NCBI GenBank assembly: GCA_025353305.1
Contig: JANXQX010000090.1
Location: 1 to 20,376 of the forward strand
DNA from: Holophagaceae bacterium
GTDB lineage: Bacteria; Acidobacteriota; Holophagae; Holophagales; Holophagaceae
Direction of reading: 5' to 3'
DNA length: 20,376 nt
Made by a program: the position numbers and the translations under genes. The notes under the pieces are model-generated. The model saw nothing but the letters and a program-made list of their open reading frames with translations, did no database searches and was not told the origin of the DNA. Shown here in pieces: positions 4,001-18,765 of the stretch (positions are counted from its first letter, which is position 1; the number at the start of each line of letters is the position of its first letter).

Positions 4001-5563
4001 GCCAAGCTCTTTGAAAAATTCAGCCAGGCCGATACCAGCATCACGCGTCGGTTTGGCGGCACAGGTCTGGGCCTCGCCATCAGCAAGCGGCTGGTGGAAG
4101 CCATGGGCGGCGTCATCGGCCTGGACAGCGAGGCCGGGCACGGCACCACCTTCTGGTTCACACTGAGCCTGAAGCCCGTCGAAGAAAATGAAAACGGCGT
4201 TAGCGCCGCCGCGGCTCTCTCCAGCGATTTTCGCGTGCTGGTGGCGGACGACCTGCCGGAAAGTGCCAACGCGCTCTTCGATCAGCTCTGGCGCTGGGGC
4301 CTGGAGGCGAGCCTGGCCTCCACCGGCTCCGAGGCTTTGGAAGATATTCTGGTTTCCGCTGGAAACGGAAAGCCCTATCACCTGGTGCTGCTTGACGAGG
4401 ACTTGCCCGGCATGGGTGGATGGGAGTTGGCCAAGACTTTGCGCGCCGAACATCCCGAAGTTGCACCCATGCTGGTGCTGCTCTGCCCCATGCACCAGCC
4501 TCGCGAAATCTGGGCACTGAAGGCCGCCGGATTCAATGCGATGCTTCGTAAACCAGTCTTCGCCTTCGAGCTGAGGGAGCTGATGGTGGAAGCGTCCCGG
4601 AGATCTGACGGCGCCAGTTCTGGATGGATCGGCACCGAGGCGGAAACTTCTGGCGATGAAGCACCGGTGGGTGCGGCCGCCCAGGCCCTGGCGGGGCGCC
4701 GGATTCTCATAGCCGAGGACAACCCGCTGAACCAGCACGTGGCCCTGCGTCTGTTGAAATCCATGGGCGCGGTGGTAACGCTTTGCTCCACGGGTCTGGA
4801 AGCGGTCGAGCAGGCGGCGCGGGGTGGGTTTGATATCATCCTGATGGATGGCCAGATGCCGGGGATGGATGGACTGGAAGCTGCGCGGACCATCCGCGCA
4901 TCGGGGGGACGATTGCCCATCCTGGCGATGACCGCCCATGCCCTGCAGGGGGATCGCGAGCGCTTTCTCAAATCAGGCATGAACGATCTGCTCACCAAGC
5001 CCTTCAGCCGGGATGAATTGCGGGATGCCATTCTGAAGCAATTGGAACCGGAATCGAACCTTGCATCCGAGGCTACGCTGATCATTCCAATGCCAGTGTT
5101 CGAGCCCGATGAAGATTCCAAGGAGACCGCCCTCTCTCCCGATGGCGAACCTTTGGAAGAAGAGGCCGGCGATACGATGCAGATGCCCGTCCAGATCCCC
5201 GCCACAGATTTCCGCCACCCCGTTGACACCGTGTCCCTGCTGCATTCCATCCATGCCGAGGACCGCGACGAGCTGCGCGAATTGCTCGTGATGTTCCGGG
5301 CCCACGCGCCTGACCGCATGGCGGATATCCGGATGGCGCTGCAAGAAAAGGATGCCAAGGCTCTGAAAGCCGCCGCCCACGCCCTGTGTGGCAGCGCGGC
5401 CTACGTCTACGCCCGCCCGGTGACGGATATCGCGCGCCGGATGGAAGAACTGGCCGCCGAAAACCGCATCTTCGAAGCGGCGGTTTTCCTGCCGGAGCTG
5501 GAAATGGCTTTCACTGCAGCTGAAACAGCGTTGAAGGAACTGGAGGCGCGGCTAGCGCGGTGA
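1091..5563 (+). CDS. Hybrid sensor histidine kinase with double beta-propeller sensor, two receiver domains and HPt
   Basis: A 1490-residue membrane-anchored phosphorelay kinase. A signal peptide (about 1-30, ending MPAQ) is followed by about 14 two-component-regulator propeller blades (about 35-640; tryptophan motifs from W63 to W613). That number suits two seven-bladed propellers. A Y_Y_Y domain (about 675-738), one membrane helix (about 743-765) and a short coiled linker follow. HisKA has phospho-acceptor H811 in [10 protein letters not shown]. The ATPase domain has N928 in the N box, D960 in the G1 box and GTGLGLAIS from G990. Receiver 1 (about 1047-1165) has D1102 and K1154. Receiver 2 (about 1204-1320) has D1253. 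The C-terminal HPt (about 1374-1485) has H1430. The start at 1091 has GGAG 12 nt upstream and directly precedes the signal peptide; ATGs at 1097 and 1103 are alternatives. Oddities: the G1 box reads DSGPS where DxGxG is usual, and receiver 1 has Cys at the Thr/Ser switch position. The ligand is unknown. Confidence 0.93.
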
Positions 5564-18314: not shown

Positions 18315-18391
18315 GCACCCGTAGCTCAGTTGGATAGAGCGCTGCCCTCCGAAGGCAGAGGTCGCTGGTTCGACCCCAGTCGGGTGTACCA
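18315..18391 (+). tRNA. tRNA-Arg (anticodon CCG)
   Basis: A 77-nt tRNA with encoded CCA. The acceptor stem GCACCCG/CGGGTGT pairs fully, including one G-T at position 1-72. The D-arm is GCTCAGTTGGATAGAGC. The anticodon stem CTGCC/GGCAG encloses loop CTCCGAA with anticodon CCG, so it reads the arginine codon CGG. The T-stem GCTGG/CCAGT (one G-T pair) carries loop TTCGACC, and the discriminator is A followed by CCA. The last 25 nt plus five flanking bases are repeated 280 bp downstream. Confidence 0.96.
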
Positions 18392-18486
18392 ATCAAACTA
18401 GGAGCCTGATCGAAAGGTCATGCTCCTAACTTTTGTCAGAGCCAGGGTCGAACCAGCGAGCCCGTCGTCGGAGACGCGACTCCCGT
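18367..18486 (+). repeat. Copy 1 of a tRNA 3'-end-linked direct repeat
   Basis: Starts in the T-arm of tRNA-Arg. The first 30 nt (18367-18396) are identical to 18647-18676, the offset being exactly 280 bp. Homology continues for roughly 90 nt at lower identity: a hairpin (18401-18426), then GGTCGAACCAGCG (18446-18458). The latter is the exact reverse complement of the tRNA T-arm segment CGCTGGTTCGACC (18363-18375). Confidence 0.8.
18401..18434 (+). terminator. Likely terminator of tRNA-Arg
   Basis: GGAGCCTGA (18401-18409) pairs with TCATGCTCC (18418-18426) with one mismatch and an 8-nt loop, followed by TAACTTTT. It begins 10 nt after the tRNA CCA end, in the right place for an intrinsic terminator, although the T-run is short. 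The hairpin is conserved in the second repeat copy. Confidence 0.6.
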
Positions 18487-18646
18487 CTAACAGATGCTCC
18501 CCGCGTCCTCGCTCGCGCCTGCGGCTTGCGGAGCCGGGAACCCTTGTCGCATCGAATCGGCGGGGAGGGGCCCATCTCCGTGAGCCAGAGGCGAGCGGGA
18601 GGACAGCGCCCAAAGCGCTGTTCGATAGATGGGAGCGAAGCCCAAC
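18487..18646 (+). ncRNA. Possible structured RNA between the two repeat copies
   Basis: No protein-like reading frame is convincing. Perfect complementary segments occur in order: CTCCCCGC (18497-18504) with GCGGGGAG (18560-18567), CCCATCT (18571-18577) with AGATGGG (18627-18633), and inside that ACAGCGC (18603-18609) with GCGCTGT (18615-18621). Together they make three helices, two of them nested. This suggests a folded RNA or a structured DNA element. I do not recognise it as RNase P, tmRNA, SRP or 6S RNA. GC-rich DNA can show such helices by chance, so confidence is low. Confidence 0.3.
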
Positions 18647-18765
18647 GGTTCGACCCCAGTCGGGTGTACCAATCAACATTGGAGCACGAGCCAAGAATCG
18701 TGCTCCTGTGATAGTCGGAGTCAAGGTCGAACCGGCGAGCCCAGTCCTTCGAGACATTCTTCCCG
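18647..18765 (+). repeat. Copy 2 of the tRNA 3'-end-linked repeat (tRNA remnant)
   Basis: Begins with 30 nt identical to the tRNA-Arg T-arm, acceptor 3' strand and CCA. No matching acceptor 5' strand or anticodon arm precedes it, and the T-stem 5' half is altered (AACGG), so it is not a tRNA gene. A perfect 9-bp hairpin GGAGCACGA/TCGTGCTCC (18681-18706) and GGTCGAACCGGCG (18725-18737) follow, at positions equivalent to copy 1 apart from a 1-nt shift. It could be an att-like duplication or the remnant of a second tandem tRNA. Confidence 0.75.

Follow-up and report, generated by a model that had tools for sequence, protein, structure and literature searches.

Why does the 3' end of a tRNA gene recur a short distance downstream, together with a hairpin and an antisense piece of the T-arm? 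The question is raised by a tRNA-Arg(CCG) gene in a contig of a Holophagaceae bacterium. The window analyzed here is the whole stretch of 20,376 nucleotides, in which the gene is flanked by a gene for N-acetylmuramoyl-L-alanine amidase and one for a fatty acid desaturase (Pfam). Our results make it probable that a small mobile repeat, structured and non-coding, inserted just downstream of the tRNA gene and left its footprint in this region. The argument uses the following features, in which T denotes a copy of the target and R1 a covariance model that is introduced below.

18315-18391, + strand: intact tRNA-Arg, anticodon CCG (ARAGORN; Rfam RF00005, 65.5 bits)
18367-18463, + strand: target copy 1 (T), with the tRNA 3' end, a terminator-like hairpin and an antisense T-arm; direct repeat with 18647-18742
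18399-18428, + strand: terminator-like hairpin 3' of the tRNA, a stem in predicted folds, followed by ACTTTTG
18445-18459, + strand: antisense T-arm 1, 15 nt, exact reverse complement of 18362-18376
18464-18646, + strand: 183-bp segment that separates the target copies
18481-18538, - strand: degenerate inverted element core, weak (R1 22.5 bits, E=0.017)
18571-18633, + strand: element core, three-way junction, 63 nt (R1 74.2 bits; predicted fold of -34.1 kcal/mol; family covariation)
18571-18577/18627-18633, + strand: core P1 (predicted fold)
18578-18598, + strand: core P2 with tandem G.A (predicted fold), followed by the linker GA
18601-18623, + strand: core P3, followed by the linker GAT
18647-18742, + strand: target copy 2 (T), 76/97 positions identical to target copy 1
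18681-18706, + strand: hairpin of target copy 2 (from the sequence), in register with the first hairpin
18725-18734, + strand: antisense T-arm 2, 10 nt, reverse complement of 18646-18655

The duplicated tRNA-Arg end and the segment between its copies

The limits of the tRNA gene are 18315-18391 according to ARAGORN and 18315-18388 according to Rfam. An exact repeat of 30 nt had been described at its 3' end, and this is indeed what we find: 18367-18396, comprising the last 25 nt of the tRNA and 5 nt more, is identical to 18647-18676, 280 bp away. The direct repeat extends further, with 61 nt at 82% and then a block (18435-18463 / 18714-18742) at 86%, and the duplicated unit of approximately 97 bp exceeds the 30 nt given in the first-pass annotation. 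A hairpin is present at the matching offset in both copies, as was also reported there. The antisense T-arm likewise occurs in both copies and measures 10 nt in the second; in the first copy, however, it spans 15 nt and not 13, and 300 shuffled versions of the downstream DNA gave no match longer than 11 nt.

The nearest relatives that were found via the amidase protein are L001, L002 and L003 (94%, 88% and 87% amino acid identity), L004 (66%) and the Geothrix oryzisoli locus L005 (65%). Record titles assign L001, L003 and L004 to Holophagaceae and L002 to Acidobacteria. The end pair of the window tRNA is G1.U72 (GCACCC...GGGTGT); a G-C pair is found in L002 and L003, and the U is present in copy 2 as well.

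The sequence 3' of the tRNA appears highly structured: the fold predicted for 18392-18640 (249 nt) is unusually stable, with a z of -6.1 against dinucleotide shuffles. The core at 18571-18633 was absent from the earlier reading of the sequence. Across the family such cores are approximately 53-86 nt long, most often about 62 nt, and are built from a variable outer stem P1, a P2 hairpin with tandem G.A pairs, a P3 hairpin and the linkers GA and GAT. They contain internal inverted repeats and are not A+T-rich (G+C of 0.57-0.83 among the matches). L001 has a core in the same place that is 96% identical to that of the window, as well as a counterpart of the weak inverted core (4833-4889, minus strand, 41.8 bits). 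In the window 107 nt instead of 5 separate the end of the left target copy from the strong core, with the weak inverted core in between; the locus is therefore regarded as composite.

The second copy could in principle be a decayed tandem tRNA-Arg gene, as had been suggested, since it consists in part of a tRNA 3' end. However, only tRNA positions 53-77 are contained in copy 2, the duplication takes in the downstream hairpin and the antisense piece, and a dispersed core lies between the copies. The core and the duplicated non-tRNA part contradict such a decay, which we consider extremely unlikely.

Above the curated cut-off, tRNA (RF00005) is the sole Rfam family found, both in the window and among 14 loci with an element or a tRNA; weak Rfam matches in the region, all under the gathering scores, were taken as chance. 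ARAGORN additionally calls a tRNA-Leu(CAA) at 18574-18671, which spans the second tRNA end together with the greater part of the element core. As this call is without Rfam support and overlaps the element core, it was taken as spurious, and it is probably a false gene that annotation may carry.

Distribution, structure and flanks of the core

The first-pass annotation had pointed to relatives as the place to look for the downstream segment, and there both other copies and covariation were found. A DNA search with 18565-18646 as query gives copies in four of the five relatives at E<=0.01. With R1, which was built from nine copies, matches at E<=0.01 are obtained in all five near relatives (at least 21, 39, 27, 5 and 9); these copy numbers are lower bounds, because part of the candidates was scored. 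The Geothrix family, by which we mean the family of the Geothrix oryzisoli genome G005, called Holophagaceae after NCBI taxonomy, is represented by 77 genomes, and 63 of these contain an R1 match at E<=1e-3. No match at E<=1 was found in 75 loci of other organisms (1,154,730 bases, including one titled archaeon and two titled Acidobacteria). In a sample of the phylum, at least 36 of 396 genomes contain a match, with at most 13 candidates scored per genome. Three phylum genomes outside the family list (G079, G108 and G178) have one strong match each, of 57.5-69 bits, which suggests transfer or contaminant contigs.

Among 73 distinct copies, 92.0% of the cells are paired and two-sided changes occur in 21 of the 23 pairs. 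The covariation score amounts to 0.542, against 0.160 in shuffles and at most 0.090 for slid structures. Because this alignment was fitted to the model, the count was repeated on a MAFFT alignment made without a structure model, using 23 copies of model length (62 nt) that were chosen by hand and of which 22 are gap-free relative to each other. Here 90.9% of the cells are paired and 16 of the 23 pairs show two-sided changes, a number reached by 2 of 500 shuffles. The score is 0.497 against 0.157 in shuffles, none of which reaches 0.497, and at most 0.108 for slid structures. A three-way-junction structure of the core, adopted by either DNA or RNA, is well supported by these alignments. It had been proposed that the two helices near the tRNA are kept as RNA. 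The anatomy of the tRNA-Arg locus does recur in relatives, but the strong covariation sits in the three-way-junction core instead.

Direct repeats commonly flank the core. In a first set, 43 of 53 matches lie between direct repeats of score >=16 with the cores unmasked; these 53 were taken from 75 R1 matches, the 22 omitted being second matches in a locus plus L122, L130 and L003. The second set consists of 62 matches in G009 and G054 plus 3 found in surrounding regions, the G037 matches being omitted. With the cores masked, flanking direct repeats (score >=16) are found at 45 of these 65 matches, which include orthologous sites and are therefore not independent; none of 115 control points taken from these loci has such repeats. 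The duplications in this set measure 18-218 bp (median 65), and in 25 of the 45 duplicated matches the left copy stops 4-6 nt before the core. The usual layout is T-E-T: a left T, often followed by about 5 nt, then the core, a variable tail and the second T. No duplication is visible at 20 of the 65 matches, convergent core pairs among them. Among 55 loci, 49 have a duplication exceeding 26 bp.

Targets confirmed by Pfam are the start of miaB, the end of ridA and the 3' end of recR, and a location at gene ends holds for these. An automatic ORF test of gene-end insertion was probably blurred by long antisense ORFs in G+C-rich DNA. Dyad symmetry at the insertion junction, which inspection by eye had suggested, is unsupported in 56 loci, with a hairpin score of 4.37 against 4.27 at control positions. 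In-frame insertion, as in Rickettsia palindromic elements, was also considered and rejected, since the spacing of the miaB copies, 140 bp in three genomes, is not a multiple of three.

Two sites are polymorphic between relatives. At the 3' end of recR, G009 has the T-E-T layout (71-bp duplication, 100-bp insert) and G017 and G054 have one T; at the second site G054 is filled, with a 67-bp duplication, and G009 has one T and no element. Both comparisons were made by BLAST, and the duplication lengths are the overlaps between the two halves of the query. In this unrooted comparison the single-T relatives fit gain by insertion; a single clean T would also be expected from loss of the element via recombination between the T copies.

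Another reading of the region takes the repeat as an attL/attR-type duplication from a tyrosine-integrase element that had integrated into the 3' end of the tRNA. The exact duplication of that end agrees with it, and of the options in the first-pass annotation an integrating element came nearest. Nonetheless, an insert of 183 bp is too short to hold an integrase gene, and the duplication extends 72 nt beyond the tRNA. Cores with duplications also occur at miaB, ridA and recR and within the copied tRNA 5' half in L002, and non-tRNA insertions with duplications of 18-218 bp contradict the att reading, which is thus very unlikely. The exact 30-mer gave 0 matches in viral contigs.

The tRNA gene itself has further neighbors of this kind. 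A further copy of the 5'-terminal 14-19 nt of tRNA-Arg(CCG) precedes the intact gene in L002, L003 (at 2835-2887), L190, L193, L197, L209 and L243, and all seven loci have an R1 core upstream on the tRNA strand, though a weak one in L003. Consequently, insertions at this tRNA affect the D-loop in addition to the T-arm. In L002 (10835-10996) the first 19 nt are repeated upstream and followed by two tandem cores. By eye, cores appear nested in a smaller hairpin between T-arm copies in L243, L244, L214 and L250, and the same smaller hairpin has a plain short loop in other genomes (e.g. L213 and L215).

Other arrangements were seen as well. Locus L299 has four cores at a spacing of 60 nt. Convergent pairs of 57-59-nt cores, with starts 75 nt apart and no target duplication, occur in L272, L273, L281, L286 and L142 and perhaps form a separate subfamily. 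A tail with a second hairpin, carrying P2-like tandem G.A, was noted by eye in L093, L127, L129, L097, L125, L128, L140 and L145; its presence at several sites suggests an optional second domain.

Antisense T-arm and inverted pieces of the target

An antisense T-arm of at least 13/18 and up to 18/18 nt is found in 27 of 47 tRNA-Arg(CCG) loci; 25 of these 27 exceed the best of their own 200 shuffles and 2 equal it. Similar pieces were scored in the tails of other insertions. From 60 chosen loci, 55 with the T-E-T layout and a left edge at most 10 nt from the core were retained, representing 31 distinct sites. With one locus per site, an inverted junction piece of score >=8 is present in the tail at 15 of 31 sites, against 71 of 930 mismatched-junction controls, and direct pieces at 5 of 31 sites, against 66 of 930. 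At score >=9 the numbers are 8/31 against 23/930 for inverted and 3/31 against 17/930 for direct pieces, and at score >=10 both kinds occur at 3 of 31 sites (7 of 55 each when all loci are counted). Since direct and inverted pieces are equally frequent among the longer ones, the target contributes to the tail in either orientation. The element family repeatedly displays a short inverted segment of the target junction, and the antisense T-arm at tRNA-Arg is most simply seen as one such segment. It probably stems from an older event, because L002 and L003 carry the antisense piece without a second downstream tRNA end.

Alternatively, the antisense T-arm might be conserved as an RNA element, pairing with the T-arm of the tRNA by read-through or in trans and so regulating tRNA-Arg folding or decay, with both helices under selection. 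Its recurrence in 27 of 47 loci agrees with this, as does the predicted fold of 18362-18459 (98 nt), a 15-bp duplex over the terminator. Furthermore, the variable T-loop base (with the preceding A) is the same in tRNA and antisense piece in 24 of 27 loci, and 0 of 5000 permutations reproduce this, though counts and permutation ignore kinship and copies chosen by similarity favor agreement. However, the second direct copy of the T-arm, which is non-functional, agrees with the tRNA equally well (21 of 22 loci). RNA pairing could explain the agreement between tRNA and antisense piece, but has no need of that with the second direct copy. The antisense piece is moreover missing in 20 of the 47 loci, and inverted junction pieces also occur at insertions in other genes. 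On this evidence we consider a regulatory pairing distinctly unlikely.

Homogenization of the copies offers another explanation for their likeness. On the acceptor strand, which is without an antisense partner, both tRNA ends read GGGTGT in the window and GAGTGC in L001. Copy 2 thus tracks lineage-specific changes, as homogenization predicts. Comparable results were obtained for T pairs at miaB, a permease-like site and ridA, where 8 of 9 within-genome pairs are more alike than every between-genome comparison. The exception is L129, with 50/56 within the genome against 48-51/56 between genomes. As for the compensatory changes described earlier, the exchange of T-A to C-G in the T-arm/antisense helix does not hold: 18646 is located just outside the duplicated segment, and so this is not a substitution at a homologous site. 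Overall, the supposedly compensatory changes fit homogenization of the copies, with selection for pairing as a possible contributor. Recombination between short direct repeats would be enough for homogenization. Tandem arrays of two to three core-plus-target units are observed in L131, L133 and L124, and these fit such recombination.

Mechanism, mover and relation to known repeats

For the mobile repeat favored here, insertion would take place at staggered nicks, tens of bp to approximately 200 bp apart. Fill-in of the nicks would create the long duplication, with the target gene staying intact through the copy that is still attached. One element end, the precise one, would be joined at one nick, and attachment of the other end would follow a short bout of copying from adjacent target DNA, frequently in inverted orientation. 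The two short direct copies could subsequently recombine with each other, which would keep them alike and could yield T-E-T-E-T arrays.

Two enzyme families were evaluated as mover and rejected, as neither tracks the element across the 77 genomes. A Y1 transposase (PF01797) is present in 13 of the 77 and was found in none of the copy-rich genomes G009, G037, G054 and G073. Reverse transcriptase (RVT_1) is present in 23 of 77 and absent from several genomes with at least 20 copies, such as G054, G013 and G034. The question therefore becomes what moves the element.

It might be argued that the element moves via RNA. A SINE-like RNA would then have its precise 3' end on the strand opposite to that shown and be reverse-transcribed at a nicked target by an enzyme acting in trans, the inverted target piece being a template jump. 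One precise and one variable end, long duplications of variable length, and target pieces, often inverted, at the variable end would all be in line with this. The distribution of RVT_1, lacking in several copy-rich genomes, argues against it, and DNA fill-in with strand switching accounts for the same marks. An RNA intermediate is therefore possible but rather unlikely. The specific picture of a bacterial SINE-like element, in which a three-way-junction RNA is copied into nicked DNA at one precise end, with duplications of up to approximately 200 bp, and often leaves a short inverted target copy, is quite unlikely.

In bacteria, small mobile repeats are generally classed as MITEs or REPINs that are moved by a known type of transposase. 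REP and REPIN elements, with a GGAG motif before the palindrome, are moved by RAYT (Y1) transposases, which REPINs need. Transposition of the IS200/IS605 type is not known to make long target duplications, and REPINs are not known to duplicate their target on insertion. The element described here resembles REP/REPIN in its scattered, G+C-rich hairpins and in having GGAG before a palindrome. It differs in other respects: Y1_Tnp is found in 13/77 genomes whereas the element is found in 63/77, and duplications of 71 and 67 bp occur at sites with one T in relatives. DDE transposases make short target duplications, and MITEs of DDE transposons share terminal inverted repeats with an autonomous IS. 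The duplications here are far longer, and the search for a parent IS covered Y1 transposase and reverse transcriptase.

RUP, Correia/NEMIS and similar bacterial MITEs are described in PMC2229807 as non-autonomous, shorter than 200 bp and in some cases accompanied by target duplication. The present element shares these properties, but has neither TA ends nor A+T-richness. The nearest published bacterial kind that we found is YPAL/RU-2 of Yersinia, described by De Gregorio 2006 and Delihas 2007 (via PMC2229807) and compared here by description only. According to this source, YPAL elements are approximately 168 bp long, have internal inverted repeats and target duplications of 3-26 bp, are intergenic and not A+T-rich, and have targets next to or spanning dyad symmetry, with filled and empty sites compared (PMC2229807). 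Common to both are small size, an intergenic location, internal inverted repeats, a composition that is not A+T-rich, duplications of the target that vary in length, and the occurrence of filled as well as empty sites. In contrast to YPAL, our element has duplications of 18-218 bp and a core of most often about 62 nt, its left edge is often sharp, its tail contains pieces of the target, and hairpin scores at the junction do not support dyad symmetry.

Similar tendencies are seen in mitochondrial DNA, whose GC clusters and repetitive hairpin elements are described as mobile palindromic or multi-hairpin units (PMC4478555, PMC2800124); GC clusters have flanking repeats AG or ACT and can merge (PMC4478555). 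Double-hairpin elements belong to the same comparison. The mobile palindromic or multi-hairpin units and the merger of clusters are points of likeness, whereas the flanking AG or ACT and the mitochondrial host, as opposed to a bacterial one, are points of difference. Judged by title or start of abstract, none of the matches listed from the largely open-access literature describes such a repeat in Geothrix or Holophagaceae.

Summarizing, the family combines a covarying three-way-junction core with duplications far longer than the MITE and REPIN classes make. As one copy of the gene can stay intact through the duplication, insertion of such an element need not be destructive, even in a tRNA gene; at the ends of genes, these elements give rise to tandem arrays and antisense fragments. 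The polymorphic sites within the Geothrix family make the question of mobility testable. If the SINE-like reading were true, copies would carry an antisense tag of their own host gene, such as the miaB start or the tRNA-Arg T-arm, and these tags could serve as ready-made antisense regulators.
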